Below are positions 3,462 to 41,835 of a DNA stretch of 62,706 bases, piece by piece. The notes beneath the pieces were generated by a model, which saw only the letters and a list, made by a program, of their open reading frames with translations, ran no database searches and had not been told where the DNA came from. How positions within the stretch are numbered: position 1 is the first letter of the stretch; every line of letters begins with the position of its first letter. The position numbers and the translations under genes are program-made. Origin of the DNA: Clostridiales bacterium (GTDB taxonomy: Bacteria > Bacillota > Clostridia > Christensenellales > Pumilibacteraceae); the NCBI GenBank assembly GCA_022508445.1, contig JAFLVG010000009.1, forward strand, positions 1 to 62,706, written 5' to 3'.

Positions 3462-3466
3462 AGATT

Positions 3467-4492
3467 ATGGAAAATAAAAACGTTCAAAACACGGATACCG
3501 AAAGACGCAAGCGCGTGTTCTCCGCAATTAAGCCGACGGGAAATCCCACGCTCGGCAATTATCTCGGCGCAATGCAGTATTGGCCGCAGATGGCGGACGA
3601 ATACGACTGCTTGTATGCGGTTGCCGATCTTCATGCGATAACGGTTGCAATCGAGCCCAAAGAGCTTCGCGAAAACAGCAAGCGGCTTTTTGCGCTTCTC
3701 ATCGCAATGGGCATCGACCCCGAGAAAAATATTCTGTTCATGCAGTCGCATGTGGGAGCGCACTCCGAGCTCTGTTGGCTTCTCAATAACTATACGATGT
3801 TCGGCGAAGCGAGCCGCATGACGCAGTTCAAAGACAAGAGCAAAAAAGCGCCCGACAATATAAATGTCGGACTTTTCGATTACCCCGTGCTAATGGCGGC
3901 GGATATTCTGCTTTATCAAGCGGACGTCGTGCCGGTAGGCGACGACCAATTACAGCACGTCGAGCTTTGCCGCACGATAGCTAACCGCTTCAACAACCGT
4001 TACAGCCCGACCTTTACCGTACCCGTCGGAAAAACTCCGAAATACGGTGCGCGCATATTTTCGCTTTCCGATCCCACCGCGAAAATGGGCAAGAGCGATG
4101 GCGCAGGGGACGGCTCGGTTTTCCTTCTCGATCCGCCGGAAGTCATCATGAGAAAATTCAAGCGCGCAGTCACAGATTGCGACACAAAGGTAAAGGCGAG
4201 CAAAGACAAGGCAGGCATAACAAACCTTTTGACCATTTACGCCGCGCTCAATAATACTACTGTCGAGAGTGCGGAGCGTGAGTTTGAAAACGCGGATTAC
4301 GCTACATTCAAGGCGCGCGTCGGCGAGGCGGCGGTCGAGCGGCTCCGCCCCATACGCGAAAGGTACGAAGCGCTTCGCCGCGACGAGGGCGCGCTTTGCG
4401 AGATTATGAACGCGGGCGCCGAAAAGGCGGCGAGGATAGCCAAACGCACACTTGACAAGGTCTACAAAAAAATCGGGTTTGTGCGCATATAA
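3467..4492 (+). CDS. trpS: Tryptophanyl-tRNA synthetase
   Basis: A 341-residue class Ic synthetase charging tRNA-Trp. The HIGH-type motif appears as KPTGNPTLGNYLGAM near the N-terminus; a T in place of the first H is a frequent variant in Bacillota. The KMSKS-type loop is AKMGKSDG. The tail KRTLDKVYKKIGFV is typical. It follows thrC by 5 bases and its stop overlaps the start of the next gene (TAATG). I see no T-box leader, so if it is regulated by tryptophan this is not from an immediately upstream riboswitch. Confidence 0.96.
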   Translation: MENKNVQNTDTERRKRVFSAIKPTGNPTLGNYLGAMQYWPQMADEYDCLYAVADLHAITVAIEPKELRENSKRLFALLIAMGIDPEKNILFMQSHVGAHSELCWLLNNYTMFGEASRMTQFKDKSKKAPDNINVGLFDYPVLMAADILLYQADVVPVGDDQLQHVELCRTIANRFNNRYSPTFTVPVGKTPKYGARIFSLSDPTAKMGKSDGAGDGSVFLLDPPEVIMRKFKRAVTDCDTKVKASKDKAGITNLLTIYAALNNTTVESAEREFENADYATFKARVGEAAVERLRPIRERYEALRRDEGALCEIMNAGAEKAARIAKRTLDKVYKKIGFVRI

Positions 4493-12269: not shown

Positions 12270-12321
12270 ATACTATATAATAAGGTAATTGTGCGCAAAA
12301 TCACAATCGATGGGGGAAACA

Positions 12322-18300: not shown

Positions 18301-21300
18301 AATTACTCCGGCTCCGACGCCTATGCGAAAGGAATAAGCATACGCACGTCGGCGGCTACGGTAGAGGTACGCGACCCGTCTACCAGAGAAAACACCAACG
18401 CGAGTAGCGTTAAGGTCTACGAGGAGTCGAGTGTGAAGTCGAGCGTCGCAATCTATTTGCCGGGTAGCTTCACAAACAACTTCAAGTTCAGCGACGAGTG
18501 GTCGAGCAGCAGCACGCTTTTGACGGTTCTTAAATCGGGCAACGTTTACACCTTCCGCCATGTGTATCTTAAAAAGGGCGATCTGTTCAAGGTGTATTTG
18601 CCGAGCGGCGCAACAAACCAGAAGTGGTACGGCGGCAACTTCACGGCTGTCAACACTCCGTTTACGCTTTCGTATTCGTCGCAAGCCAATATCTATCTCG
18701 GCTCGATTGCGGATGACTACTACGATATCGTTTTCAATACCAGCACCAAACAGCTCACAATCAAGACCTACGTAGCTCCGGTGATTACCGAGATCAAAGT
18801 CACCGTAAGCAAGACCGAGTATAAGGTGGGCGAGCCGTTTGACGCGAGTACCGTCAAGGTGGAAATACTCGACAGCGACGGTAAGAATCACAACACCGAG
18901 TACACAATCTCCACGAAACCCAATACCAATGTCAAGGGTGACAACGTTGAAGGTGTGATCGAGTACACCGGCAATCTCGGCGGAGAACGGTACAAGACAT
19001 TCACAATAAACGTCAAGCAGATAGTCGTTAGCTTCGTTACGGGCGACGGCGCTACTTCGGTAGACGATTTGAATCCACTTTATATGACGACGTTCACATT
19101 GCCCGAAGCGCCGAGCAAGACAGGATACGAATTCAAGGGTTGGAGTAGCGGCGCAACAATCTATGCGGCAGGCGCGCAATACGAGGGCGGTGTTGCGGAC
19201 GATATGACCTTTACTGCCGTGTGGGAGATAAAGAAGTACACCGTTACGTTTATGGCAAGCGGCGAGCAGTATGGCGAGATCGTAACGGTCGAGCACGGAC
19301 AGACGCTCGCCGATAAAAAGCCTGCCGATCCTAAAAAGACGGGCTACACATTTAGGCATTGGTCGGCTAACGGTGAGGGCGGCTCGGCATACAACTTCGA
19401 AGCCAAGGTCACAGGCAATCTCACGCTTACCGCCGTGTTTGAAATCAACGTTTACGAAGTCGAGTTTATCGTGGACGGCAAACAATACAAGCTCGTCAAC
19501 GTCGAACACAACGAAAAGATCGGCGACAAGAAACCCGCAGATCCGTCGAAGAAAGGATACGAATTCAAACATTGGTCGGCTGATGGCGAGAGCGGCTCGG
19601 CATACGACTTCGACACCGCCGTTACCGACGATGTTACGCTTACCGCCGTGTTCGAAATCGTCAAGTATTCGATAGATTATGTCTATGAAGATTGCGGCAT
19701 AGAAGGTGTGACCGAAAAGGCGACGTTCACTCCCGAATACATCGAGTATACCGTGGAAAGCAATATCACGCTCGGAGAACCGACTCCGCCTGCCGGCGTT
19801 ACATTCGTCGCATGGCATGTGGGAAGCAAAACAGGCCCGCAGATTTCCGCTTTGCCGAGCGAGTACGCGCAAAACTTGGTGCTTTACGCGGAGTACACCA
19901 AAAATCCGACGGTCGAGTTCGTGTTCGATTACAACTATCCCGACAAAGCGCAAACCGCGCAACCGGCAGATGTAGTGAATAAGATTGTCTCCGGTTTGAC
20001 CGTGGAACCGCCTGCCAAACCTACGCTCGAAGGATACGAGTTTAAAGGTTGGTTTGCAGAAGGCGCTTCGACCGAGTACGACTTTACTCAGCCGGTCAAC
20101 GAGCGCACGGTCGTTTATGCGAAATGGGAGATCTTGACTTACACTGTCACCTTCGATATCAACGGAGGCAAAGGTGAAGATCCCGAATCGCAGGAAGTGG
20201 AATATTTGGAAAAAGTGCAGGCTGTTGCCGATCCCGAAAGAGACGGCTACACGTTCGGCGGTTGGAAATTCGGCAGCAAGACGTGGAGCTTCGAGGACGA
20301 CGTGGTAACGAGCAACATTTCTCTCATCGCGGATTGGACGCCGATAAAATACACGATAACGTATGTACTCGGCGACGGCGGCGTAAACGGAGAAGGCAAC
20401 CCCGAGTTCTACTACGTCACGAGCGAAACCATCTCGCTTAAACCCGCAACTCGCAAACACTATGAGTTCACGGGCTGGCATGACGGCAATGGAATTGTTA
20501 CGGGAATAAGTCAAGGCTCTTTCGGCAACATAACGCTTACGGCACAGTGGAGAGCGATAGAGTACACCGTCGAGTATAACGTGTCCGGCACGGTTGGCGG
20601 AGCGACAATAACCGCCGATTCGGTAGACAGCGCGCCGTTCTCGGCTGAGCAAGACGTAGTTCTTCCGACGACTCTCACCGGCGTTACCAAGGGCTACAAG
20701 TTTGTCGGCTGGACATTCGGCGGCAAGGATGTGACCGAGGTCACGCTTTCGATGTTCGAAGACGCAAGAAGCATAACGCTCACCGCCAAGTACGAGATTA
20801 TAGTCTACTCCATAACCTACAACTTGGATAGCGGCACGAACGGTGCCAACCCTACTACTTACAAAGTCACGGACGGCACGGTAGAGCTCAAAGACGCAAG
20901 CAAGGCCGGCTACGACTTCAAGGGCTGGTACACCGCGGCCTCGAACGGCGACAGAGTGACCGAGCTTACGATAGACTTCTTCGTAGCATACGACAGCAGC
21001 AAAGCCATTCCTCTATACGCCATATTCGAAAAGGTTGTGAAGGTGGACGGCATTTACGACGGCGATACGCTTGTCAAGGCGTTTGTCGTAAGCGACGAGG
21101 GCAAGGAGTTTGCGGCCAAGTTCATCAAGGTTGAAAGCGCATCCTCTGCAAACCCGTTCAAGTTCAAGATTTACGTCAACAACGCGGTCGTGACTACGAA
21201 CACCAATCTCAAAGACGGCTCGGACAGCAACGTCACCGTTTCCAACAGCGAGTTCGCGATTAAGAAGTCGGGTATTTACACGATGTATTACAGATACAAA

Positions 21301-22473
21301 GTGGGTTCCGACGGCAACGCAACCGGTGTTTACTTCACGCGTCACGGCGAAGCGTCCGACTTCGTAGAGCCCGGCATTGTGGACGGCGACGGTATTTATG
21401 TCGGCGGCAAATTCACTGCTCCGTTCGTGTTCAATGACAATAATATGAACCAAGTAATGGCGCAAGGCGTAACCGTTACCGCTTCCGACAACAACTCCAC
21501 AATAGAAGTGACGTTCAAGTATGCAGGTAAAGATATATCCTTGACTTATCTCGACGTTGATTCGAAAGTCACGAATGCCGGCACAGACAACAACGTCAAG
21601 CTGTACAGCGGCAAATACAACTTCTACTACAACTACGCCAAAAACGGTGAGGTTACGTCAACCGACCATCAGCATGCCGCTAATCGCATGTGGATTGACG
21701 GCGAGCAGACGGGCGGACCTAAACTTGTTATTCCCGAAGGCGCAGTCAAGGTCTCGAAGGAGAGCAGCTTCTATCTCGTCGGCAAGTTCGGTGACAGCAG
21801 CGTAACCTACGAATACGGTTTCGAGATGTCGCCCAACGGTTCCAGCACTACCGAGTTTATGTACACTAAAAATCTTGTCGCCGGTGACATGTTTGCCGTT
21901 TACCGTAAGGATTGGAATTTCTGGTGTACGACTATCGAAAACTCCGATTATATGAATACATATCTCGAATCGGAAAAGATAGACGGAAAAACGTATATGA
22001 AGGTGAAGTCTAACGGCGCCGGATCCTATACGTTCTACTTCAAGAACGAGTATAACAACGACAGAATCTATATCGCCTTTACGGCTACCGGCAGTACTGA
22101 AAAGGAGATCGTACTCGAACCCAACTCCGCGATATTCAAGTTCAATGACGGTATGTTTGTTCTTCAACTCGGATATATGCCCACTTGGGCAGACAACAAT
22201 TCGGCATTTGCCTACGACGGCGGCGTTTGGGCAAACAGATATTTGCTAAACGGCTCGACATATATAATCAATAAAAACAAGAGCGCGGTTTCTTTCATGG
22301 TAGGCTTTACGCAAGGAGGAGGAGGTAAGAATACGGATAGTATTTCTTGCAGCAAATTTACCAATGACAAGGTTAACAAAGTTACAAATATATATGGTAA
22401 AAGCGATGATTTCAGTTGGAAGAATAACATGTGGGAATACACTTTGACGACCGCGGCAATCACCTACAAATAA
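12322..22473 (+). CDS. Giant InlB-repeat (Flg_new) surface lipoprotein
   Basis: A 3383-residue exported lipoprotein. A lipoprotein signal peptide ends at a lipobox, TAVAC, with Cys25. I count about 27 Listeria-Bacteroides/Flg_new (InlB B-type) repeats of 65-85 residues, recognised by YTVTFDxNGG..., a central GYxFxGWY and a closing xLYAxW. They fall in three blocks (about 35-108 plus 196-803, 1203-1876, 2234-2905). The blocks are separated by bacterial Ig-like domains (about 113-195, 1060-1200, 2153-2233) and by two aromatic-rich modules (about 803-1060 and 1877-2151) that look like carbohydrate-binding folds. A third such region makes up the C-terminus (2906-3383). No LPXTG or transmembrane anchor is present, so attachment is by the N-terminal lipid. 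A role as a ligand- or glycan-binding surface fibre is inferred. GGGGGA precedes the ATG. Confidence 0.9.
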   Translation: MKRNRIVLLLAILIFTMFGFTAVACGKAKSPETKTFTVTFDLNYEGAPNGGVYKTSPVESGKTVAKPSDPNRTDGYTFVEWTENRDGTGKWNFSTKITKDKTLYAQWKEQQKPVLTGIRVTPPTKTVYFVDEEFSKDGMAVTAVYSDASANHSVDIDECNIRGYDMHVADTYIVTVEYKGFEDTFDITVKEPKTEYVDVTFNQNTDYDVSGMPDKQTVVKGEKAQEPSAPSVKGFTFDGWYTEDGEEFGFDSAVNCDVELFAHWTAKSYTVNYIVEGGAAPTNGTYTATSGVFEPYALEVAHQDHYTFDGWYLNSEYDGKKYEQLTYDDITDSNEFTFYGKFTPETYTIEYRLGGSVDTYSATWAQGYTPVTSYSYGSTVALPTAENIVITAAEGSSATYNFVGWLLDGKVVGDISATDFGGKILTANITSDPIYTVTYDHNYENGPAETRDVKKDGTAPNLTPTRKGYTFDAWYHDAGCTNAYDFETETVAGNITLYANWTADEYSIIYVLGEGGENHADNPDTYTIESEITLENPTREHYDFDGWYNGDKKVEKIEKGSTGSITLTAHWTPKKYSIIYVLGEGGENHADNPDTYTIESEITLEHPTREHYTFEGWYLNGKKVEKIEVGTTGEITLTAAWEAIEYTLEYNTGLYGETIESKTFTIETFDTVATLPEVTINAAGVAGGYYLLGWYTAGDGGDKIDVISTDELINLNGKTLTVFAQYSNLYTVTFDVKGGALAQGAAKTQSVAFGLKITEPSVTRSGYKLLGWKKDGGTAYWNFDSDTMPAENITLYAVWEENPTNGLYLRITYNNWETSEVVEATANEDGSEYTVKGVRLAQGANFYIADYKNGNVASDGYVKPSGSSVATYVTPDKQISGIAFGVASEDYGNYTVTTYNKDYNDFTWDMYVHREKVSVRLSTTNTALRNPDGTANPEFTPDAEDKAVYIMGEFNRYSPSNVWSNESMMITTAHIGTKYYFTGVQINKYDQFKIYVAGAQKGKGTWYGIDTDKAFKLGENTLSSAQEAFNIVFTVGASGLYDLVFDTNGNKLTVAAHKTLAVTINKTVYVGDTLTKDDITVKSNDKTVTDYTLYAEEAQLGDDNTLTVVYSGTVFKTTYTAYDVEATGLEVVLKVTEYTLGDTFSLDGAEVRLVKNNNTFEPVTDMSKLTVSQIVLKNVGEQIEITITHEDTGLTATVKINVSPATVTFISAGGSDVEPVSITEYGQKIDAPVSEMKGYELLGWFAADSETAFDFATTGFTGSMTLTAKWRAKDYTVTYDANGGTVDTPKQNYTIETEDLTLATPTRDHRMFDGWFTDRDGGIKVEPAMLIENPQDITLYAHWSFDSHTVEFDIDGGEGKTPEGRTVTHGEETVMPDAPTKTGYSFGGWYNGTVTKQAGESYTVEDDTVFTAIWTAEEYAVTFVFITSDKYTASFADGYTAPTSYTYGEGLTLPTAEFIKVVGAGYEFKGWAIDKNPTANSTLYDEIGITETGEKTFYAFISDKASVDFTFDYNYDGADPRTKTVQVVIGRAVTEPAKPTREGYEFKGWYNNKEGLGDKYVFGSSVLEKTTVYAKWERLSYTVTFETNGGSAVDSATVYHGETVSRPSTEPTKKGYTFAGWYKNSDCTELWNFEEDTVKAATTIYAKWTANDVTVTFNADGGTPEPASRTYKFDSALPELPVVSKAGYEFIGWFDGGKKWQEGDTLNVTELNLTAQWEAISYTIEYVVNVSVNGTAVKANAVDARYTVFTVEKIGFALPESLEGINPSHYLFVGWVDAQGKPVTSISLDMFEDGRKITLTATYELRKYTVTFDANGGKLAAGTSETVQVTYGETVKEPAKPTRTGWTFAGWYLGNSAYDFKQAVKSDIKLVAQWNGSVGTFLYYTTDGTNWINGQQAKKDPNADNQYKIDNVTIYNNMQFLVVTRKSDGTSVYLKAAGDLEVGEVENAMTVTSSSPDNNFKITNLKANYVGATWTIYIYNLQGGATVGSDGSLNYSGSDAYAKGISIRTSAATVEVRDPSTRENTNASSVKVYEESSVKSSVAIYLPGSFTNNFKFSDEWSSSSTLLTVLKSGNVYTFRHVYLKKGDLFKVYLPSGATNQKWYGGNFTAVNTPFTLSYSSQANIYLGSIADDYYDIVFNTSTKQLTIKTYVAPVITEIKVTVSKTEYKVGEPFDASTVKVEILDSDGKNHNTEYTISTKPNTNVKGDNVEGVIEYTGNLGGERYKTFTINVKQIVVSFVTGDGATSVDDLNPLYMTTFTLPEAPSKTGYEFKGWSSGATIYAAGAQYEGGVADDMTFTAVWEIKKYTVTFMASGEQYGEIVTVEHGQTLADKKPADPKKTGYTFRHWSANGEGGSAYNFEAKVTGNLTLTAVFEINVYEVEFIVDGKQYKLVNVEHNEKIGDKKPADPSKKGYEFKHWSADGESGSAYDFDTAVTDDVTLTAVFEIVKYSIDYVYEDCGIEGVTEKATFTPEYIEYTVESNITLGEPTPPAGVTFVAWHVGSKTGPQISALPSEYAQNLVLYAEYTKNPTVEFVFDYNYPDKAQTAQPADVVNKIVSGLTVEPPAKPTLEGYEFKGWFAEGASTEYDFTQPVNERTVVYAKWEILTYTVTFDINGGKGEDPESQEVEYLEKVQAVADPERDGYTFGGWKFGSKTWSFEDDVVTSNISLIADWTPIKYTITYVLGDGGVNGEGNPEFYYVTSETISLKPATRKHYEFTGWHDGNGIVTGISQGSFGNITLTAQWRAIEYTVEYNVSGTVGGATITADSVDSAPFSAEQDVVLPTTLTGVTKGYKFVGWTFGGKDVTEVTLSMFEDARSITLTAKYEIIVYSITYNLDSGTNGANPTTYKVTDGTVELKDASKAGYDFKGWYTAASNGDRVTELTIDFFVAYDSSKAIPLYAIFEKVVKVDGIYDGDTLVKAFVVSDEGKEFAAKFIKVESASSANPFKFKIYVNNAVVTTNTNLKDGSDSNVTVSNSEFAIKKSGIYTMYYRYKVGSDGNATGVYFTRHGEASDFVEPGIVDGDGIYVGGKFTAPFVFNDNNMNQVMAQGVTVTASDNNSTIEVTFKYAGKDISLTYLDVDSKVTNAGTDNNVKLYSGKYNFYYNYAKNGEVTSTDHQHAANRMWIDGEQTGGPKLVIPEGAVKVSKESSFYLVGKFGDSSVTYEYGFEMSPNGSSTTEFMYTKNLVAGDMFAVYRKDWNFWCTTIENSDYMNTYLESEKIDGKTYMKVKSNGAGSYTFYFKNEYNNDRIYIAFTATGSTEKEIVLEPNSAIFKFNDGMFVLQLGYMPTWADNNSAFAYDGGVWANRYLLNGSTYIINKNKSAVSFMVGFTQGGGGKNTDSISCSKFTNDKVNKVTNIYGKSDDFSWKNNMWEYTLTTAAITYK
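13840..14259 (+). repeat. Tandem near-identical 210-bp coding repeat
   Basis: Two consecutive 70-codon units (13840-14049 and 14050-14259) inside the giant gene. The first 100 or so bases of the units, encoding SIIYVLGEGGENHADNPDTY, are almost identical at the DNA level, whereas most other repeats in the gene have diverged strongly. This points to a recent unit duplication or gene conversion. Confidence 0.8.
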
Positions 22474-33855: not shown

Positions 33856-34452
33856 ATGGAAAACAAACTCGGGATAATATCGGCAGTAGAGCTTGCCGAT
33901 GCGGAAGAGCGGCTCGGAAAACTCGGAGTGCGCAATTTGTACGATTCGGGACGCCTGCCGGTCATGTCAGTCGGCACGTTTGATTCGCTCGCAGAAATAC
34001 ATAGGGCAATGCTCGGCGGCATTTACGATTTTGCCGGCGAGCTGCGCACAGTCGACATCTACAAGGGCAACGTGCGGTTCGTGCTGGTGGAAGGACTTCA
34101 AAGCGCAGTCAGGTTTGCGGCAGTCATGTCGCAGGACACATACGATGAGATTATAAACAAGTTTGCGCAGATGAACATCGCGCATCCGTTTCGCGAGGGT
34201 AACGGCAGAGCGATGCGGCTTTGGTTGGATTTGATGTTCTGGGCAAAGTTCAAAAAGCTCGTGGATTGGAGCAAAATAGATAAAAAGAGCTTTGACGTCG
34301 CAATGGGAATGAGCGCGCTGGACAGTCGCGCCGTCGCGCAGATAATAAGGCCGGCGCTTACCGACAAAGTTGATCGCGCGATGTTCTTGCGCGCTATCGA
34401 CGGCAGTTTTGCGTTGGACGGATATAATAAGTATCGCGCCGAACAGCTATAA
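33856..34452 (+). CDS. Fic/DOC family protein
   Basis: A 198-residue Fic-fold protein with the active-site motif [16 protein letters not shown] (His attacks the nucleotide; Glu-Gly-Asn-Gly-Arg binds phosphate and Mg). Most Fic proteins transfer AMP from ATP to a hydroxyl on a target protein. The upstream [27 protein letters not shown] flap region is also typical. I do not see a clear (S/T)xxxE(G/N) inhibitory motif, nor a separate antitoxin gene. It sits between typA and guaA in host-style DNA, so it may be a resident regulator and not mobile cargo. GGGGA precedes the start. Confidence 0.88.
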
Positions 34453-34478: not shown

Positions 34479-36017
34479 ATGACACAAACGGTTCTTGTAA
34501 TCGATTTCGGCGGGCAATATAATCAGTTGATTGCTCGGCGTGTGCGCGAAGCAAACGTGTACTGCGAGGTTAAGTCGTATAAAACACCGATAGCCGAGAT
34601 TCGCGCTATTAACCCCAAGGGAATAATATTCACCGGCGGACCGAAGTCGGTGTATTTGGACGATTCGCCGCGTATGGACGGCGAGATCTTCGAGCTCGGC
34701 ATTCCCATTCTCGGGATTTGCTACGGCGCGCAGTTCCTCGTCTACGGTTTGGGCGGCGAAATAGGCGCTGCGAGCGCGGAGGCCGCGGCGGAGTTTGGCA
34801 GAACCGATTGCAAGTTCGACACGAGCTCTCCGCTTTTTAATGGTATCAAAAAGCAGTCGGTCGTTTGGATGAGCCACAACGACTACATAAAGACTCTGCC
34901 GAACGGGTTTAAGTCGATTGCACACAGCGCAAAGTGTCCGTACGGCGCAATCGAAAACACAGAAAAGAAGTTCTACGGCACGCAGTTCCATCCCGAGGTC
35001 AACCACACAGAGCAGGGCTTCGACATGCTCAAAAATTTCCTCTTCAATGTGTGTGGGTGCAAGGCCGATTGGACGATGCAAAATTACGCCGAGACCGCGA
35101 CCAAGGAGCTTCGCGAAAAAATCGGGAACGGCAAAGCGCTGCTCGCGCTATCCGGCGGTGTTGATAGCTCTGTCGCGTGTAAGCTACTCGCAAACGCTAT
35201 CGGGAGCCAGCTCACCTGCATCTTTGTCGATCACGGGCTTATGCGAAAGAACGAGGGCGACGAAGTCGAAGCGGCGTTCCGTGACAGCGGCGTAAATTTC
35301 GTACGCGTTAATGCCGGTGAGCGGTTTTTGGAAAAATTAAAGGGCGTTACCGAACCGGAAAGAAAAAGAAAGATAATAGGCGAGGAGTTCATCCGCGTTT
35401 TCGAGCAAGAAGCCAAAAAGATAGGAACAGTGGACTACCTCGTTCAAGGCACAATATATCCCGACGTCATAGAGAGCGGACTCGGCGACGCCGCGGTGAT
35501 TAAGTCGCACCACAACGTCGGCGGTCTTCCCGACTACGTCGATTTCAAAGAGATCGTCGAGCCGTTGCGCTTGCTGTTTAAGGACGAGGTAAGAGCGCTC
35601 GGCAGCGCTCTGGGATTAAGCGACACGCTTGTGTGGCGCCAACCCTTCCCGGGACCGGGGCTTGCAATCAGAATCATAGGCGAGATAACGCCCGAAAAGG
35701 TGGCGATTTTGCAGGACGCCGACGCGATATTCCGCGAGGAAATCGCAAAAGCAAAACTCGACCGCGCCATCAATCAATACTTTGCCGTACTTACCAATAT
35801 GCGCTCGGTGGGCGTCATGGGCGACGGCAGAACGTACGACTATACGCTTGCACTCCGCGGCGTGACGACAACCGATTTCATGACCGCCGATTTTTCGCGT
35901 ATTCCTTACGACGTACTCGAAAAGGTTTCCAATCGTATAGTCAACGAGGTGGGACATATAAACCGCATCGTTTACGACATTACCTCTAAGCCCCCTGCGA
36001 CTATCGAATGGGAATAA
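34479..36017 (+). CDS. guaA: GMP synthase (glutamine-hydrolysing)
   Basis: A 512-residue two-domain enzyme that aminates XMP to GMP. The N-terminal class I amidotransferase domain has the catalytic Cys in [15 protein letters not shown] and the His/Glu in [12 protein letters not shown]. The PP-loop ATP pyrophosphatase domain has [15 protein letters not shown], and the C-terminal dimer domain ends with [15 protein letters not shown] precedes the start. No guanine riboswitch is visible. Its 3' end is the left boundary of an AT-rich accessory island; guaA is an established integration target of genomic islands. Confidence 0.97.
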
Positions 36018-36018
36018 T

Positions 36019-36186
36019 ATGCTAATGAATGAAGAGCAGTACAAGTTTCTATGCAAATGGATGGTCGATAACGGAAGGCGCCCACTAAGCCAACTGGAAA
36101 AGGAACTCATCAAACAAGCAATCGACAACGCCCAAAGCCCTATTGAAATGGTCGTATCGATTTTAGCATTACTGCCGAGAAATTAG
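36019..36186 (+). CDS. Small 55-residue ORF directly after guaA
   Basis: An ATG one base after the guaA stop opens a 55-codon frame, MLMNEEQYKFLCKWMVDNGR through ALLPRN. The product is a helical, charged small protein with no signal peptide and no family that I can name. There is no good Shine-Dalgarno, so it would depend on coupling with guaA. Base composition is intermediate between guaA and the AT-rich genes that follow. It may be the first gene of the island or a remnant. Confidence 0.5.
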   Translation: MLMNEEQYKFLCKWMVDNGRRPLSQLEKELIKQAIDNAQSPIEMVVSILALLPRN

Positions 36187-36196
36187 TAAAAGAACA

Positions 36197-36793
36197 ATGG
36201 TTATGGATGATAAGACGAAAATCAAGTTTGGCAAATTAGTTATCAACTGCCAGGCGTTTTATCGTGTAGCTACTATGTTATGGGAAGACTATAGTTGTGA
36301 TGAAACAATCGAGAATGTTGTGACAATTGTTGTCAATTCTGTTTTTGCCTGTGAGCTGGCGCTGAAAGCTATTTTAATGAAGAGTGAAAAAGACTATTGC
36401 AGGGTACATAAGTTATACGAGTTATATAGTGAATTAGAACCCGAAGAAAAAGAATGTATACTGCTTGCATTAAAACAGTTTTATCCCTCGCAGACGGAAG
36501 AATGGCTTGTTGATAGCATAAAAATAGCGTCTGACATTTATCAGAAAGCAAGATACTTTCAAGATTACACGATAGCTATCGACTTGACATTCTGTAGAAA
36601 TTTAATGGAGGCTTTATTTTCTGTCAAACAAAAAATATGCGGAATCTACGGCGTAAAAGATATGAGTGGGGAAGTAGAAGTGGATGAACAGAGGTTGGAT
36701 TCAGAAATCAATAAAACCTTGACGGATATGGTTGCAGAAGCGGAAAAATCAAAAAAAATAGTAGTAGAATATGACATTAAAAATATCAGATAG
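36197..36793 (+). CDS. HEPN-domain-like protein
   Basis: A 198-residue, mostly helical protein. Residues 12-140 match the HEPN pattern: a helix with NSVFACELALKAILM, then RVHKLYELYSEL (equivalent to the GHdLxxL motif), and later YQKARYFQDYTIAIDL. HEPN proteins are often RNases or nucleotidyltransferase partners in toxin-antitoxin and abortive-infection systems. The strict Rx4-6H RNase motif is not obvious, so catalysis is uncertain. An alternative ATG is at 36203. Its last 23 bases overlap the next gene, indicating a co-translated cassette with the zinc-binding and membrane proteins downstream. Confidence 0.7.
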   Translation: MVMDDKTKIKFGKLVINCQAFYRVATMLWEDYSCDETIENVVTIVVNSVFACELALKAILMKSEKDYCRVHKLYELYSELEPEEKECILLALKQFYPSQTEEWLVDSIKIASDIYQKARYFQDYTIAIDLTFCRNLMEALFSVKQKICGIYGVKDMSGEVEVDEQRLDSEINKTLTDMVAEAEKSKKIVVEYDIKNIR

Positions 36794-37037
36794 AACTGTA
36801 AGACTCATATGCCCTGTATGCGGAAGCGATAACTTTAATTATTTAAACGGTATCTCTTTTGACGATATGAATGATAGCGACACAGTTCAGTGCGCAATGT
36901 GCAAACAGACATTTACAAAAGAGCAAATCCTCGAAGCAAACCAAGATAGCATTGATGCAGAGATAGAGGCAATGCAAGATGAAGCCATCTCCCAAGTTGT
37001 AAAAGAGTTAAATAAAGCATTTAAGAAATTTAAGTGA
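36771..37037 (+). CDS. ECs_2282-like zinc-binding protein
   Basis: An 88-residue protein with a single zinc ribbon: CPVCGSDNF near residue 14 and CAMCKQTFTKEQILEAN near residue 41. A helical C-terminus (DEAISQVVKELNKAFKKFK) follows. This is the layout of the ECs_2282 family of putative zinc-binding proteins found in mobile elements. Function unknown. It begins inside the HEPN-like gene and its stop adjoins the next gene's ribosome-binding site (GAGG), so the three are tightly coupled. Confidence 0.72.
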   Translation: MTLKISDRTVRLICPVCGSDNFNYLNGISFDDMNDSDTVQCAMCKQTFTKEQILEANQDSIDAEIEAMQDEAISQVVKELNKAFKKFK

Positions 37038-37045
37038 GGCGAATT

Positions 37046-37510
37046 ATGGAACAGTTTTTTATGGATTGGGGCGGACATATTTTATCGGCAATTGCTATAA
37101 TTTTCACGGCTATTACATTTTTTCTGTCACTGAAAGCAAATAGATTGCAGAACCGTGTTAACGAATTGGATGCCAAAATTAAGAAATACGAACTCGATAA
37201 AATTCAAAAAGAAAAAGAGGAAGAAAAAACTTTTGAGTTAGGTGCAACGATAGTCAAAATCGGTAAAAGATTTAGGCTGAGAGTTTATAATATAGGTAAG
37301 CGGACGGCGTACAATGTTTCTGCTCGCATTGAGGGAGATAATATAATGCTATCGACTGGCAAAATGCCATTTGATGAGCTTGAACCCCAAAGAAATTTTG
37401 AAGAAACATTACTTTTCTATGATAAAGCACCTCGTAAATTTAGGGTTATCATAACTTGGCAGGATGAAAACCAACAAGAGTATAATAGAACTCAAATGTG
37501 TTCTGTGTAA
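37046..37510 (+). CDS. Single-pass membrane protein with coiled coil
   Basis: A 154-residue protein with one N-terminal transmembrane helix (residues about 10-28, HILSAIAIIFTAITFFLSL). A charged coiled coil (about 30-65) and a beta-rich domain (about 70-150) resembling an immunoglobulin-like fold (FRLRVYNIGKRTAYNVSARIEG) follow. I do not recognise a named family. The start at 37046 is preferred because GAGG lies 6 bases upstream. It is the third gene of the HEPN/zinc cassette and could be the membrane effector or anchor of that set; this is inference. A hairpin follows its stop. Confidence 0.68.
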   Translation: MEQFFMDWGGHILSAIAIIFTAITFFLSLKANRLQNRVNELDAKIKKYELDKIQKEKEEEKTFELGATIVKIGKRFRLRVYNIGKRTAYNVSARIEGDNIMLSTGKMPFDELEPQRNFEETLLFYDKAPRKFRVIITWQDENQQEYNRTQMCSV

Positions 37511-37512
37511 TG

Positions 37513-37543
37513 GAATAGGCAGGAATAACTATCCTGCCTATTC
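37513..37543 (+). terminator. Terminator after HEPN cassette
   Basis: A perfect 12-bp stem, GAATAGGCAGGA (37513-37524) with TCCTGCCTATTC (37532-37543), loop of seven, then only a weak T-rich stretch. Confidence 0.7.
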
Positions 37544-37618
37544 TTATGTTTCGCTACTATTTCTATCAGTAATATTAAGTACCAAAACAAACCTTCTCCA
37601 AAATCGTACCAAAATTGG

Positions 37619-37648
37619 TTGACTCCCGAGCTGTTTCGGAGGTATTAT
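37619..37648 (+). promoter_or_regulatory. Promoter of serine recombinase gene
   Basis: TTGACT (37619-37624), 18 bases, TATTAT (37643-37648). Two direct GTACCAAAA repeats lie just upstream (near 37580 and 37607) and could be recombinase or regulator sites. Confidence 0.5.
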
Positions 37649-37700
37649 CCCAGTACAAAATTTAAGTAAAGTCAGATTTGAGACTTAAAGGAAGGTATAG

Positions 37701-38444
37701 TTGTCCGTATACGGTTACGCAAGAGTCAGCACCCAACGCCAAAAGTTAGATAGACAGATAACCAATATTCTATCTGTTTACCCCAAAGCTATCATGAAGA
37801 CAGAGCACTTTACTGGAACAACTACTGCGAGACCAAACTGGGAGCAGTTAAAGAAGATGCTCAGAGAAGGTGACACGGTGGTGTTCGATAGCGTGAGCAG
37901 AATGTCAAGGAACGCCGAGGAAGGCTTTGCAGATTATGAGATGCTGTTCAAGATGGGAGTGAACCTTATATTCATTAAAGAGCCTCATATCAGCACCGAG
38001 GTATACAAACAGTCCATTGCAAAAGCATTTAATATTGAAGTAAGCACTGGGAACGATGCCGTGGACGAATACTTTGCAGGGAATATGGAATTAGTGAATA
38101 GACTTCGGATGAAACTTGCCCAACAGCAAATCAGATTAGCCTTTGAGCAGGTAGAAAAGGAAGTTACCGATTTGCACCTACGAATTTCAGAGGGGATGAG
38201 AGAGGGTAAAGCAAAAAGCAGTCAGATAGGTTTGGTAAAAGGAACGACCCTCACCACCAAGAAGTCGATAAAGTGCAAGAAGATAATAAAAACGCATTCC
38301 AAGACATTCGGCGGAAACTTATCCGACGAGGAACTAATAAAGCTCTGTGGGTGCACTCGCAATTCATACTATAAATATAAAAGAGAGATGCTTTGTGAAT
38401 GGGTGTCGGATATGCTTAAATGTACGATAAAAAAATTTAAATGA
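37701..38444 (+). CDS. Serine recombinase (resolvase/invertase family)
   Basis: A 247-residue small serine recombinase. The catalytic-domain motif YGYARVSTQRQKLDRQ contains the nucleophile Ser; FTGTTTARPNWEQL and VFDSVSRMSRN are also typical, with SRMSRN carrying conserved Arg residues. A long helix (about 120-165) follows. The C-terminus has a resolvase-type helix-turn-helix (LSDEELIKLCGCTRNSYYKYKREM). The start is TTG at 37701, preceded by AAGGAAGG. Such proteins cut and rejoin DNA at short palindromic sites. It stands alone with its own promoter and could move or invert parts of the island. Confidence 0.88.
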   Translation: MSVYGYARVSTQRQKLDRQITNILSVYPKAIMKTEHFTGTTTARPNWEQLKKMLREGDTVVFDSVSRMSRNAEEGFADYEMLFKMGVNLIFIKEPHISTEVYKQSIAKAFNIEVSTGNDAVDEYFAGNMELVNRLRMKLAQQQIRLAFEQVEKEVTDLHLRISEGMREGKAKSSQIGLVKGTTLTTKKSIKCKKIIKTHSKTFGGNLSDEELIKLCGCTRNSYYKYKREMLCEWVSDMLKCTIKKFK

Positions 38445-38465
38445 TTAAGAAATTTATAATTACTA

Positions 38466-38494
38466 TTGCAAAAATATATGATTTATGATAAGAT
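38466..38494 (+). promoter_or_regulatory. Promoter of deaminase/kinase-Nudix operon
   Basis: TTGCAA (38466-38471), 17 bases, TAAGAT (38489-38494), 30 bases before the first start of the three-gene operon. Confidence 0.65.
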
Positions 38495-38524
38495 ATGGTC
38501 AAATTAAACAGAGGATAATTGCTA

Positions 38525-39160
38525 ATGAAAAAATTCATCACTACGATTGTAACATTTGTTTTCACAGTTTTAGGATGTTTCATTCCGCTATTAAAGATAG
38601 ATGATTTATATAAAATCCTGCTTATTGCGATTCCGGCAATAGGATGGTTGATTATAGTGATTTTAGATATAATTGAATTTTGCGAAAAAAATATTGGCAT
38701 AAAAAGAAAAAAGAGAATCCGAACAGCCCAATCTTTTATAATGAATGCTACACACAAAATAATCCTATTTGGAGGTAATTTGAGTTGGGCTAAAGATTAT
38801 AGTGAAGCTCTACGAAAGAAAATAGAAGATAACTGTTGTGCGGAAGTATATTATGATAAGAAAGAATATGGAGATTTAGCAAGACAGACATTGGAAACTA
38901 ATATTCAATTGTTGAAAAGGATAGGATGCAAGGTTTATCAACTAGATAAAATTTATGGATTAAAGTGCATCTTTAGCGACCCACTAAATGATTATAGTAG
39001 TTTTCAAGTATTAACAATAGAAAAGTTACGAGAATATAATAACTCACAAAAAAATAGATATAAGGCTGAAACATTAGACTTCAATAATAATAAGGATGTG
39101 GCAAAAATATACCAATGCATCTATTCGATGATTGCAAATAAGGGGTTAACGGAGGAATAA
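38525..39160 (+). CDS. Membrane-anchored protein of unknown function
   Basis: A 211-residue protein, first gene of the three-gene operon. Two transmembrane helices (residues about 2-22 and 28-52) are followed by a basic stretch (KRKKRIRTAQ). The cytoplasmic domain begins HKIILFGGNLSWAKDYSEAL and continues AEVYYDKKEYGD, NIQLLKRIGCKVYQLD and YGLKCIFSD. This alternating pattern recalls phospholipase D-like or nucleotide-binding alpha/beta folds, but no HKD catalytic motif is present, so I leave the function open. Its position suggests the membrane-acting or sensing component. GAGG lies 10 bases upstream of the ATG. Strongly AT-rich. Confidence 0.65.
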   Translation: MKKFITTIVTFVFTVLGCFIPLLKIDDLYKILLIAIPAIGWLIIVILDIIEFCEKNIGIKRKKRIRTAQSFIMNATHKIILFGGNLSWAKDYSEALRKKIEDNCCAEVYYDKKEYGDLARQTLETNIQLLKRIGCKVYQLDKIYGLKCIFSDPLNDYSSFQVLTIEKLREYNNSQKNRYKAETLDFNNNKDVAKIYQCIYSMIANKGLTEE

Positions 39161-39162
39161 GT

Positions 39163-39639
39163 ATGAATAAACATATTTCATGGGATGATTATTTCATGGC
39201 GGTTGCTATTTTATCTTCTAAACGAAGTAAAGATGATAATACTAAGGTAGGATGTTGTATTATTAATAAAAGTAAAAGAATAATAGGGTGTGGATATAAT
39301 GGGATGCCGAATAATTGTAGTGATGATGAAATGAATTGGAATCGTGAAGGTAATGGAATTAACACCAAATATTTTTATGTGGTGCATGCGGAAGCGAATG
39401 CGATATTAAATAGTGACAGAAAAGATTTGATAGGTGCTTCATTGTATACTACCTTGTTTCCATGCAATGAGTGTGCTAAATTAATAGTGCAAGCAGGAAT
39501 AAGGGAGATAATATATTTATCTGATAAGTATCATGGCACTGATTCAAATTCGGCGAGTAAACTAATTTTTAATAAAGCAAATATTGAGTGTAGAGAGTAT
39601 AGTTCTATTTTTTTAAATTCAATTGATAGGATATGGTAA
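39163..39639 (+). CDS. dCMP deaminase family protein
   Basis: A 158-residue zinc-dependent deaminase of the ComEB/dCMP deaminase type. The catalytic motif HAEAN near residue 75 (His ligand, Glu proton shuttle) and PCNEC near residue 100 (two Cys ligands) are intact, as are TKVGCCIIN and GYNGMPNNC of the substrate pocket. The family converts dCMP to dUMP, but the target could be another cytosine nucleotide or nucleic acid. GGAGG overlaps the end of the previous gene, and the next gene starts 1 base after its stop. AT-rich codon use and phage-like company suggest acquired DNA. Confidence 0.87.
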   Translation: MNKHISWDDYFMAVAILSSKRSKDDNTKVGCCIINKSKRIIGCGYNGMPNNCSDDEMNWNREGNGINTKYFYVVHAEANAILNSDRKDLIGASLYTTLFPCNECAKLIVQAGIREIIYLSDKYHGTDSNSASKLIFNKANIECREYSSIFLNSIDRIW

Positions 39640-39640
39640 T

Positions 39641-41095
39641 ATGTCGCAGCAAGAAAAATTGACACAATATTTATCATTACTGCAAGAAAAAAGAGATTAC
39701 AAATTAAATAGTAATGGTATTAAAGAACCCGTTAAAACAAAAAGGCGCCCTATTATTATTGAACTTTCTGGATTGCCTAAAAGTGGAAAATCAACATGTA
39801 TAGAAGCGGTCAAGAAATTGCTGAGTTCGCATGGATTTAAAGTAAGAATAATTGGGGAAAAAGCAGCTTTATGTTCATTAAGTAAATTCGATATAAGTTT
39901 CAATTTATGGACTTATACTAATTTTATTAATGAGCTTAATGAAGCATTACAAATGAATGAACAATTTGTAGATAGTGAAAAAGATGATGTAATTTTATGT
40001 GACCGTGGTGTGTTTGATGCTCTTGTTTGGTTTACTTGGCATTATAAGAAAAAGAGCATTTTACCCAGTGAATATAATAATATAAAAAACATTGTTCTAT
40101 GGGAACGTATGAATCGTGTGCATTCTGTAATCGTATTAAAATGCAAGCCTGAAGATGCCCTATTACGAGAGCCAGCTCACTCACTTATTAATATTAATCA
40201 TTCAATTATGAAGAAGACAGTTTTATCTAGATTAAATGATTGTATAGAATTTGTAAAGAAAGATTTTAGAAAAACCAATACAAGTATTTTTGAAATTGAT
40301 TCTGTATATAATAATGAAGATACATTAAAATTTGATGTGGCTTATAAGGTTTTAGAATGCATGGATGAATATTATGATGAGAAGATTGCTTATATAACCA
40401 AAGATGAGTTGCACTTTCAATTAGAAAAAGGGGTATTGCCAGCAAAACAAGTTAGAAAAATTGAACAGATGGAGTTAAAATATGATGCTCGAAGTAAAGT
40501 GGAGGGGGATTCAGGTTTACTGCAAATTATTCCAGTAGCATTAATTGCTTATAAAGATAAAACTACACACAAAACCAAAGTACTTTGTGTTAGAAAAAAT
40601 GCTAATTCAATTGAACGAGAGAACAATCGCGCTCCTGAGCTACAAAAAGACTTATTCTATGTGGGCGGGCATATTCGCACATCTGATAAGGGCGCAACCA
40701 CGGTGAAGACCATGGTGAACGCATTGAGAAGAGAAATATTTGAAGAATTAGGGCTGTCAGTTGCAATCAGTGATAAAGTAAAATTTAAAATGGTTTATTA
40801 TGATGACAATGCTAAAAGTGCGAAACATTTAGCTGCTTATATAGTAATATATATTGATTATGATAATGTTGAAATAAAATTAGATGGCACTGAACTTGTT
40901 CAAAAAAGAGGTTCGACAAACAGCGGAAAATTTTTTGATGTTAGTAACATGCCTAAGTCATTAGTTTTAGAAAGTTGGTCTAAGGAAATATTGACAAATG
41001 AGTTTGGAGATGTTTTAAATAAAGATTTTATTGAATATTGTATACAAATGAAAACTTTTCTTGAACTATTTTCTGATATAGATGGAAAAAATTGA
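39641..41095 (+). CDS. P-loop nucleotide kinase fused to Nudix domain
   Basis: A 484-residue fusion. Residues about 37-245 form a thymidylate-kinase-like P-loop domain: Walker A GLPKSGKST at about 44-52, FKVRIIGE, and CDRGVFDALVW, which resembles the DR(Y/F) motif of deoxynucleotide kinases. Residues about 285-470 form a Nudix domain with VGGHIRTSD and the metal-binding LRREIFEELGL near 362-372; the upstream Glu of the classical Nudix box is not conserved. Nudix enzymes cleave nucleoside diphosphates linked to another group. Together with the deaminase, this suggests processing of a deoxynucleotide or a nucleotide signal. ATG at 39641; an in-frame ATG at 39623 lies inside the deaminase gene. 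Confidence 0.78.
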   Translation: MSQQEKLTQYLSLLQEKRDYKLNSNGIKEPVKTKRRPIIIELSGLPKSGKSTCIEAVKKLLSSHGFKVRIIGEKAALCSLSKFDISFNLWTYTNFINELNEALQMNEQFVDSEKDDVILCDRGVFDALVWFTWHYKKKSILPSEYNNIKNIVLWERMNRVHSVIVLKCKPEDALLREPAHSLININHSIMKKTVLSRLNDCIEFVKKDFRKTNTSIFEIDSVYNNEDTLKFDVAYKVLECMDEYYDEKIAYITKDELHFQLEKGVLPAKQVRKIEQMELKYDARSKVEGDSGLLQIIPVALIAYKDKTTHKTKVLCVRKNANSIERENNRAPELQKDLFYVGGHIRTSDKGATTVKTMVNALRREIFEELGLSVAISDKVKFKMVYYDDNAKSAKHLAAYIVIYIDYDNVEIKLDGTELVQKRGSTNSGKFFDVSNMPKSLVLESWSKEILTNEFGDVLNKDFIEYCIQMKTFLELFSDIDGKN

Positions 41096-41233
41096 ATAAT
41101 TGTGACTGATAATACGAAATCAATATTAAGCCAGTCATTTCAATCATAGATGACGAAAATAGTATTTTTATATGAAGGATGCTGTTTTGTAATGGCTAAA
41201 TTAAGTGAAGGGCAAAGATAGAACCTTTTTTAG

Positions 41234-41262
41234 TTGATTCGTCGAAAACATTGTGCTATAAT
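41234..41262 (+). promoter_or_regulatory. Promoter directed at the palindromic region
   Basis: TTGATT (41234-41239), 17 bases, TATAAT (41257-41262). It would start RNA near 41269, about 25 bases before the left palindrome arm. Between the kinase-Nudix stop and this point (41096-41233) I see only a weak GACTG/CAGTC hairpin and a 9-codon ORF (near 41192, MAKLSEGQR). Confidence 0.65.
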
Positions 41263-41295
41263 ATATTTGATAAAGGTCATACTATAAATTAGCAT

Positions 41296-41488
41296 AATCT
41301 CAGTTTTCGTCGAGATAGACAAAGAGATTTCCTAAAGCATAAACAGTATAAAAACCTTTATCACACAAGATAAGGGTTTTTTCTTATGCTACATAGTGGG
41401 GTAGGCTACTATATATGCCACTGAGGGAAAGGTTTTTATATGTTTATGTCAGGGAAGACTTATTTCTATCACGACGAAAACTGAGATT
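41296..41488. repeat. Nested long palindrome: possible structured RNA or foldback element
   Basis: The outer arms, 41296-41318 and 41466-41488, are complementary over 23 bases with one mismatch; the core is AATCTCAGTTTTCGTCG. Inner arms, 41338-41359 and 41428-41448, pair over 21 bases with one bulged G. The whole could fold into one hairpin of about 190 nt. With the promoter at 41234 it could be a non-coding RNA. Alternatives are a miniature inverted-repeat element or an invertible segment acted on by the recombinase at 37701. It matches no RNA family that I know. Confidence 0.7.
41351..41382. terminator. Terminator-like hairpin inside the palindrome
   Basis: AAAACCTTTATC (41351-41362) pairs with GATAAGGGTTTT (41369-41380) around ACACAA, then T. 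Its left arm is the same sequence that forms the inner long-range stem, so the two pairings exclude each other. It is near-symmetrical and could act on either strand. Confidence 0.65.
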
Positions 41489-41490
41489 GT

Positions 41491-41835
41491 ATGCGAACAA
41501 ATGCCATGGCGCAAAAGGAACTGAAAGCAAAAGTATTTCCGCGTATCTGGGCAAAAACCATGAAAGGCGATAAGATTACGCGCGATTACATGTACGAGCT
41601 TGACGATGCGTTCGACGAGGACAAGCTCTTCGAATACCTGTGCGAGATTACTCGGGCAATGGACATCCCGACGCCCGTCATTTTAAACAGTCATACATAT
41701 AATTTCGTGCATTTCAATATTGCCAAGTTTTTGAAGCGCGAGTTCGTGGAAGAAGTCGACTTCGACTATTTGGTGCTTGAAAACGCTTCGGGAACCATAA
41801 AGCCGTTGCCGAGATATTTCGCAGAAGATTTATAA
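41491..41835 (+). CDS. Conserved small protein of unknown function
   Basis: A 114-residue soluble protein (109 if the ATG at 41506 is used) that I cannot name: KELKAKVFPRIWAKTMKGDKITRDYMYELDD, then PTPVILNSHTYNFVHFNIAKFLKREFVEEVDFDYLVLENA. It has no signal peptide or obvious motif. Codon use is back to host style. The gene begins right at the edge of the palindrome and has no good Shine-Dalgarno or promoter, as if the island inserted at its 5' end; it may now depend on readthrough from the island or be silent. Confidence 0.72.
   Translation: MRTNAMAQKELKAKVFPRIWAKTMKGDKITRDYMYELDDAFDEDKLFEYLCEITRAMDIPTPVILNSHTYNFVHFNIAKFLKREFVEEVDFDYLVLENASGTIKPLPRYFAEDL

Follow-up and report, generated by a model that had tools for sequence, protein, structure and literature searches.

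It is known that AvcD (DcdV) combines a P-loop kinase-like part and a deaminase in a single protein, and that modules of the CBASS and Pycsar type place a nucleotide-handling enzyme beside a small membrane protein, with exchangeable partners and in an island setting. Here we describe a three-gene operon from a 62,706-nucleotide contig of a Clostridiales bacterium (hereafter the window, that is, the whole stretch of DNA analysed) that resembles both in part. With AvcD/DcdV (NF041025; PDLC02373) it shares a dCMP-type deaminase with intact zinc-site motifs and a P-loop nucleotide-kinase-like part, but the kinase and the deaminase (158 aa) are encoded by separate genes, and the operon further encodes a Nudix-like half and a pseudo-PLD membrane protein. 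The organization of CBASS and Pycsar loci is also recognizable, but the enzyme is a kinase(-Nudix) rather than a signal-making cyclase: no match to a CD-NTase or a pyrimidine cyclase was found among the eight proteins scanned (36203-41835). Unlike toxSAS toxin-antitoxin loci, the operon contains no alarmone-synthetase toxin; alarmone synthetases matched none of the eight window proteins, and one is present only beside a relative, L021, described below.

The features discussed in the text are as follows.

36018..41288, no strand: AT-rich genomic island, between guaA (34479-36017) and a 114-codon ORF (41491-41835)
37701..38444, + strand: serine recombinase, resolvase domain (PF00239, 1e-17; phrog_125 DNA invertase, 1.4e-28)
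38466..38494, + strand: weak promoter-like site TTGCAA-N17-TAAGAT, read from the sequence
38525..39160, + strand: gene 1, 211 aa, ATG start; two N-terminal membrane helices and a phospholipase-D-like (HKD) domain
39163..39639, + strand: gene 2, predicted DCTD-type dCMP deaminase, 158 aa (PF00383, 6.1e-26; HAEAN, PCNEC)
39641..41095, + strand: gene 3, 484 aa; TMK/dNK-fold kinase (residues ~35-248) and Nudix-like domain (~280-455), from profiles and the structure model
39764..39796, + strand: Walker A region LSGLPKSGKST of gene 3, residues 42-52 (coordinates computed from residue numbers)
40001..40021, + strand: DRGVFDA motif of gene 3, residues 121-127
40730..40756, + strand: Nudix core REIFEELGL of gene 3, residues 364-372, with the REUxEExGU pattern intact

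The island is 5.3 kb long and has 34% GC, vs about 50% outside; for the three genes the content is 30-34%, vs about 50% on either side. In relatives the ORF equivalent to 41491-41835 comes after guaA; in G019 only 24 bases separate the guaA stop from this ORF (L093) and there is no island, and in G016, G005 and G010 the same site also lacks it. The corresponding site being empty in several relatives, the operon is indeed island-borne, as had been proposed. The right end of the island was defined from the similarity between 41289-41483 and the post-guaA stretch of G002. The HEPN-like gene (PF05168, E = 3.5e-7) and the recombinase that had been reported in the island are both present, the latter probably being a mobility gene. 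An Rfam match to MIR869 over 41292-41494 (28.7 bits, gathering score 330) was taken as a by-product of a long palindrome in this stretch.

Re-reading confirmed the coordinates, order, AT-richness and 1-2 base spacing of the three genes given in the initial annotation: gene 1 is followed after a 2-base gap by gene 2 and the latter after a 1-base gap by gene 3, all on the + strand (38525-41095). The ATG of gene 3 is at 39641; a start at the alternative in-frame TTG (39623) would make it overlap gene 2. Among 300 composition-shuffled versions of the island the longest ORF reached 197 aa (mean 90 aa); for gene 3 and for gene 2, which at 158 aa is shorter than the shuffle maximum, clear relatives exist. 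The single promoter suggested earlier fared less well. The TTGCAA-N17-TAAGAT site does occur, but it matches 8 of 12 consensus bases by hand count (the limit of the scan was 9), and promoter-like sites passing the scan are not in excess in the region (31 vs 27.3 +/- 5.5 expected from the shuffles).

Gene 1 had been described as a two-helix membrane protein. Both helices are there, but the description is incomplete, as residues 58-211 of the predicted structure (pLDDT 73, built on three sequences) align to HKD/PLD proteins, with the best Foldseek E = 0.0014. These residues have the fold of HKD/PLD nucleases and pseudo-PLD proteins (NucT, Zucchini, TrmB, FAM83), and gene 1 may be likened to Zucchini/mitoPLD also in being membrane anchored. 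Unlike in the nucleases, the catalytic HxKx4D is not intact: in the three known members of the gene-1 family the histidine is replaced by G, N or R, the homologue in L028 having a histidine one residue before the catalytic position. The Pfam iHKD match is below the threshold (13.6 vs 27 bits), a sequence search against PDB gave no useful match, and no relatives were found in 50,697 phage or 72,556 plasmid records (E 0.1). We propose that the HKD domain is non-catalytic and serves for ligand binding or docking.

For gene 2, the alignment confirmed the earlier observation that the zinc-deaminase motifs HAEAN and PCNEC are intact. The best solved relative is human DCTD (PDB 2w4l; 6.6e-56, residues 3-146), and the phrog_174 dCMP deaminase profile matches at 6.1e-45. 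The protein has the same catalytic motifs as human DCTD and would convert dCMP to dUMP; in contrast to DCTD, this predicted activity is encoded in a bacterial island operon whose host has a further deaminase. Gene 2 is thus an extra copy, the other, chromosomal deaminase being 37% identical to it. Among NCBIfam models ComEB is the first (81.2 bits), followed by NF041025, the anti-phage dCTP deaminase, at 78.8 bits, well under its cut-off of 400. The only PADLOC match is the dCTPase model PDLC02373 (3.7e-26).

The fusion of a P-loop kinase to a Nudix domain in gene 3 is supported by both profiles and the structure model. The Walker A pattern GxPxxGK(S/T) is present in all 25 alignment rows having sequence there, the 26th (L024) stopping at a contig end. 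The pattern (D/E)RG(I/V/F)FD(A/S) is observed in 26 of 26 rows, at what we take to be the position of the DR/ERS motif of TMK/dNK kinases. The kinase half shares its fold with thymidylate and deoxycytidine kinases (1e2g, 1p60), but in the rows shown it is 12-19% identical to them, too low to give the substrate, and the family has its own motifs (ExA...P, FNxWT, DRGxFDA, GxIM). The Nudix half scores 16.3 bits with PF00293 (cut-off 21.1) and resembles the Tm1382 Nudix protein (PDB 3e57, E = 2.1e-13) in profile, fold and the REUxEExGU core, but it has a longer loop between GGHxRxxD and this core and is fused to a kinase. Compared with the Nudix box GX5EX7REUXEEXGU, the REUxEExGU part is intact, while the stretch before it exceeds x7. 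In two family members the core is lost (L026) or degenerate (L027).

A scan of bacterial genomes with gene 3 alone gave no match, whereas a two-row alignment as the query retrieved 24 kinase(-Nudix) loci. Partial matches were excluded, namely 46 of 47 genomes in one tally, matching only the Nudix half (mostly separate proteins of ~200 aa) or a short P-loop stretch; 8 of 11 and 3 of 4 partial, weak matches in two further searches; and 2 of 3 short, weak ones (E = 0.001 and 0.007) in another. Viral-collection scans with gene 3 and with alignments A1 and A3 were negative, whereas alignment A2 yielded three kinase(-Nudix) loci, two of them being one stretch; a later search recovered only two loci, both already known. 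Phage (50,697) and plasmid (72,556) records contained no relatives of gene 3 at E 1e-5, and the plasmid records gave no match with another family member either.

In 20 of the 24 bacterial loci a membrane-protein gene is located directly upstream of the kinase on the same strand, with spacing from an overlap of ~35 nt to a gap of 24 nt, depending on the chosen starts. Thus, recurrence of the kinase next to a membrane partner, with some defence genes in the vicinity, was supported. One unnamed multi-helix family (2-4 helices by hydropathy window) precedes the kinase in 17 of the 24 loci and spans four phyla, Bacillota, Bacteroidota, Pseudomonadota and Ignavibacteriota (the count includes L020, nearly identical to L019 and left out of the multi-helix alignment A4); it is also found on one viral-collection contig (L072). 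In L028 and L029 the kinases have no Nudix half and are preceded by gene-1 homologues; in the tree the window kinase is near these two, but on long branches. In L021 a small alarmone synthetase (RelA_SpoT, 1.4e-26; YwaC, 4.8e-19) is encoded 24 nt upstream of the kinase-Nudix gene, and L026 and L027 have no adjoining membrane gene. Hence the partner before the kinase is exchangeable: a multi-helix protein, a protein of the gene-1 type or an alarmone synthetase.

The window fits this pair layout except that the deaminase gene is placed between the membrane gene and the kinase. By motif, no deaminase was found within 3.5 kb of the kinase(-Nudix) gene in any of the 24 loci, some flanks of which end at contig ends; conversely, the surroundings of six other deaminase relatives (ORFs or annotation, with short flanks in two) contained no kinase-Nudix or gene-1 relative. 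The full trio occurs once, in the window. The claim that the three genes form one system is therefore not supported, and a conserved three-gene system is rejected, as the deaminase is seen beside none of the 24 relatives; for the same reason we regard it as a local addition. What recurs is a core of two genes, encoding a membrane protein and, after it, a kinase that usually carries a Nudix half.

The surroundings of the pair include mobility genes and defence-like genes. In L014 it lies between tRNA-Pro and a tyrosine recombinase (integrase), QatC is among the neighbours in L016, a YhcG nuclease is ahead of the pair in L002/L012, and a GHKL ATPase/HSDR_N protein is a neighbour in L029. In L022 a possible TIR gene (E = 1.7e-4, below the cut-off; no PDB match) precedes the pair by 15 nt. 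PADLOC families matched numbered 73 among 136 neighbour ORFs and 17 among 135 control ORFs, a weak comparison: the figure of 73 refers to profiles, of which many are redundant (single-member PDC-S02 rows) and 25 were detailed, with no member names, while the control set was drawn in part from different taxa and contains some Nudix-like proteins that stand alone. There are also ordinary-looking neighbours, namely a LepA-like factor (L010) and glycosyl transferase-like and transposase-like ORFs (as read from ORF starts). The initial annotation knew of no named system with this exact composition, and none is present in PADLOC, where besides the dCTPase model for the deaminase only weak PDC-S07 matches to the Nudix half were obtained (9 of 24 members, best 2.1e-4). 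The pair is not described in titles or abstract openings of the open-licence literature among the matches listed, which does not imply its absence from print.

We consider the locus to be a mobile nucleotide-handling module of an undescribed kind, probably directed against phages, in which the kinase(-Nudix) controls an exchangeable partner and to which the deaminase has been added in the window; the probability of this reading is somewhat below one half (about 0.48), and we infer the defence role from genomic context. The kinase(-Nudix) would bind or turn over a deoxynucleotide that becomes more or less abundant in infected cells, and would thereby switch the partner protein, which in turn would arrest or kill the infected cell. 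Here the partner would be the two-helix membrane protein with the non-catalytic HKD domain, and the deaminase inserted between the pair may, by converting dCMP to dUMP, supply or shift the nucleotide handled by the kinase. Deoxynucleotide chemistry is proposed because a TMK/dCK fold is encoded beside a dCMP deaminase. A wider version is somewhat less probable: a defence family of at least four phyla, whose partners (multi-helix protein, membrane-anchored sensor with a dead HKD domain, alarmone synthetase) swap, whose kinase-Nudix protein reads the deoxynucleotide state of the cell, and which at this locus recruited the deaminase, with dUMP as the trigger or the depletion route.

The main rival to the switch is AvcD/DcdV-like depletion of dNTPs, which we find unlikely. 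The Nudix domain would cleave dCTP, or some other dNTP, down to its monophosphate, dCMP would be converted to dUMP by the deaminase and the kinase would act on dUMP/dTMP or be a regulatory nucleotide sensor, so that dCTP is drained on infection, the membrane protein being a regulator or an anchor. AvcD is described as acting on dCTP and dCMP, both of which drop on infection (PMC10511110). The intact deaminase motifs, the adjoining TMK/dCK fold, the sole PADLOC match and the second place of NF041025 all agree with depletion, but the NF041025 score is far from the cut-off. Besides, the Rfam search of 35900-41600 yielded no family at the gathering score, and no RNA antitoxin was recognised; AvcI, the upstream RNA antitoxin of AvcD/DcdV, would be retrieved in this way only if Rfam includes it. 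As no deaminase is seen at the 24 loci, the recurring core must serve for something other than depletion through dCMP. The same absence, together with the different surroundings of the six deaminase relatives, is what would be expected if gene 2 were an unrelated passenger outside the module, an option cutting across the other readings. We hold it to be rather doubtful, since the deaminase gene is flanked, at 1-2 bases, by the two members of a recurring pair, its active site is intact, and its product is of the kind handled by such a kinase fold.

The tight two-gene coupling, the exchangeable partner and the mobile setting would also suit a toxin-antitoxin module for addiction or stability, in which the kinase(-Nudix) counteracts a toxic membrane protein (or, in L021, a toxic alarmone synthetase) or eliminates the product of this toxin, phage defence perhaps being secondary; some Nudix enzymes act on alarmones. 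However, L028 and L029 keep the pair without the Nudix half, an enzyme of two domains would be unusually large for the antitoxin role, and the alarmone synthetase is found in one case only, making this explanation quite improbable. Finally, the dCMP deaminase, the TMK-like kinase and the Nudix protein are all nucleotide-metabolism enzymes, and their genes, serving dUMP/dTMP supply, could have come together by chance on a mobile element or a remnant of a phage and play no part in defence. Deaminase relatives are indeed frequent in phages (2905 of 50,697 records), and three viral-collection loci hold the kinase(-Nudix). Still, no phage deaminase reaches 60% identity to gene 2, as against 60.6% for one copy on a bacterial plasmid, genes 1 and 3 have no matches in the phage and plasmid records at the thresholds given above, the recurring membrane partner would be needless, and the host already has a deaminase. 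Ordinary salvage is therefore very improbable. A phage nucleotide-metabolism module is likewise held to be unlikely from the lack of gene 1 and gene 3 matches in these records, although the three viral-collection loci leave it some likelihood.

Should the core pair prove to be a defence module, it would represent a new family based on an enzyme with the fold of a DNA-precursor kinase, and sensing of the deoxynucleotide pool as the infection trigger would be directly testable. The exchangeable partner, including the alarmone synthetase in one relative, provides a natural handle on the target of the kinase-Nudix protein, and the window copy raises the question of whether the added dCMP deaminase changes the trigger or the outcome.

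The three ORFs lie exactly at the positions given in the initial annotation, separated by spacers of 2 bases (genes 1 and 2) and 1 base (genes 2 and 3); by ORF reading, the operon comprises:

38525-39160, + strand: gene 1, predicted membrane protein with two helices and a phospholipase-D-like (HKD) domain lacking the catalytic His
39163-39639, + strand: gene 2, predicted dCMP deaminase, 2 bases after gene 1
39641-41095, + strand: gene 3, ATG start at 39641, 484 codons, predicted TMK/dNK-fold kinase fused to a Nudix-like domain, 1 base after gene 2

In 300 shuffles of the approximately 5.3-kb AT-rich stretch the longest chance ORF did not exceed 197 aa, hence gene 3 with its 484 codons is not a chance ORF; clear relatives were found for genes 2 and 3. 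The promoter proposed for the operon is present, but it is weak, and promoter-like sites were equally common in the shuffles.

The membrane protein and the kinase, with or without the Nudix half, form a unit that recurs. When 84,980 species genomes were scanned by a pattern-based method with a two-row alignment as the query, 24 loci emerged, 22 with kinase-Nudix (L006-L027, L024 being truncated by the end of its contig) and two with the kinase only (L028, L029); L012 and genome G009, whose contigs are equal in length, were taken as one place, and likewise L016 and G684. In 20 of these 24 loci the kinase gene is immediately preceded, in the same orientation, by a gene for a membrane protein (2-4 helices in a hydropathy window), and in 17 of the 24 this partner belongs to a single family, A4 (L020, almost identical to L019, is counted although it was kept out of the alignment, whereas L010 was aligned but is too divergent to count). 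No Pfam match is common to more than one member of the A4 family, and there is no PADLOC match. Homologues of gene 1 precede the kinase in L028 and L029, while in L021 a small alarmone synthetase (RelA_SpoT, 1.4e-26; YwaC, 4.8e-19) is encoded 24 nt before the kinase-Nudix gene; in this locus (2146-4353) the synthetase occupies the place of the multi-helix membrane protein at other loci. The other exceptions are the truncated L024, and L026 and L027, where no membrane-protein gene adjoins kinase-Nudix. Among stretches from viral collections, L072 carries a multi-helix membrane protein paired with the kinase, and L073 (the same stretch as L074) a lone kinase after a one-helix protein.

In the kinase tree (25 rows) partner types cluster more than in shuffles; the closeness of the window kinase to those of L028 and L029 is unsure, as all three are on long branches. 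Many genomes of the phylum encode Nudix-like proteins, most of them about 200 aa long, that are relatives of gene 3's Nudix half and adjoin what look like ordinary chromosomal genes (L042-L068). Among the papers listed from the open-licence literature, none describes the pair in its title or opening abstract lines; a published description may still exist.

GC content is 34% across the roughly 5.3 kb that contain the operon and about 50% in the surroundings. Among 20 genomes of the genus, guaA was detected in 15. In a near relative (G019, guaA identity 95%) and a more distant one (G016, 65%) the equivalent of the window ORF starting at 41491 follows guaA within 25 bases, and in the window 36018-41288 intervenes between them. 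In G005 and G010 the gap after guaA is longer, yet contains no island. Other relatives (e.g. G001, G011, G014, G018) carry different genes there, hence the site is variable. The insert also encodes a HEPN protein, a small zinc protein, a membrane/coil protein and a serine recombinase; the first three (the zinc protein matching NF047912, the membrane/coil protein phrog_6723) form a second cassette with overlapping ends (36203-37544), behind which lies a 13-pair hairpin resembling a terminator (37512-37544). A 201-bp palindromic element (41289-41489; 24-nt inverted repeats at 41296-41319 and 41465-41488) has one copy only in this genome and is 79.5% alike to a stretch at the corresponding position after guaA in a different species of the genus (L099, 3039-3235). 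Directly before guaA lies an ORF for a Fic-like protein (33856-34452; HPFREGNGR read from the sequence), and similar ORFs precede guaA in G014 and G018. Elsewhere in the window, 12289-22473 of the + strand is one uninterrupted open frame, about 3394 codons long.

Counting the window's own copy, gene 3 is represented at full length in 2 of 61 closely related genomes, in 3 of 396 from the order and in 1 of 398 from the phylum. Gene 1 was found only in its own genome among the 61 relatives and the 398 genomes of the phylum; a set of 200 genomes from the order added nothing but two weak matches of short length. In L014 the pair has a tRNA-Pro gene on one side and a tyrosine recombinase on the other. 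The patchy presence together with the spread over phyla suggests that horizontal transfer has been at work.

As to defence context, the genes adjoining the pair include QatC in L016 (PDB QatC, 8.4e-23), a YhcG nuclease in L002 (the same place as L012), NA37 in L019, DUF5677 in L015 and a weak DUF2971 match in L009. A PADLOC QatC match (3.4e-50) came from the pooled neighbour ORFs and is not tied to a named locus. In L022 a possible TIR-domain gene lies 15 nt before the membrane gene (E 1.7e-4, under the family cut-off). In L029 (7255-11043) the gene next after the gene-1 homologue and kinase encodes a protein that combines a GHKL ATPase with an HSDR_N-like part. Of the 165 neighbour ORFs, 136 were compared with PADLOC profiles at E 1e-6 and gave matches to 73 families, versus 17 for 135 control ORFs drawn from window sequence beyond the island and from other taxa; these counts include redundant families, and the matches listed cover 25 of the 73, with members unnamed. 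This excess is only suggestive of a defence context.

By sequence, gene 2 belongs with human DCTD among the dCMP deaminases (PDB 2w4l, E 6.6e-56), and its motifs are intact. Some match to it was found in 60 of 61 genomes, its own included. Outside its own genome, G048 and G024, the top match is in every case a remoter deaminase (E 1e-13 to 1e-19). Since the window's genome also holds this remoter type (37% identical), gene 2 is an additional copy. Proteins nearer to gene 2, with 54-61% identity, are encoded in G048, G024, a Jeotgalibacillus plasmid, a Fusobacterium record and a Subdoligranulum element, and one with 47% in Collinsella. No relative of kinase-Nudix or gene 1 was seen around these six in ORFs or annotation (about 1.5 kb per side for G048 and G024), and none of the 24 kinase(-Nudix) loci showed a deaminase motif in flanks of up to 3.5 kb, some of which are short. 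The deaminase being a mere passenger, a reading that cuts across the others, is a minority possibility, about one we would expect to hold in a quarter of such cases.

The known anti-phage deaminase AvcD also includes a P-loop kinase-like part, and the locus resembles it in having a deaminase together with such a part; it differs in that gene 2 fails the AvcD family model (NF041025; 78.8 versus 400 bits). The PADLOC dCTPase model matches no kinase(-Nudix) member at E 0.01. Judged by sequence, the locus is not a member of the AvcD family, although it may work partly like AvcD, described as a deaminase acting on dCMP/dCTP (PMC10511110). Depletion of dNTPs, as in AvcD, ranks second among the explanations and is rather unlikely. 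A toxin-antitoxin pair is a still less probable reading, and plain nucleotide salvage is improbable.

We favour, at a probability of slightly under one half, a deoxynucleotide-responsive switch of the membrane partner, because the partner is exchangeable, the kinase has a predicted TMK/dNK fold and a deaminase that would make dUMP stands between the two. Our observations cover the gene content, the folds as predicted and the recurrence of the pair; all further steps are inferred. Given the exchangeable partner, the most plausible assignment is that kinase(-Nudix) exerts control and that the partner provides the output; the TMK/dNK fold suggests a deoxynucleotide or deoxynucleoside. In the window, the dCMP deaminase inserted between the membrane protein and the kinase would make dUMP, the kind of nucleotide that TMK-fold enzymes handle.
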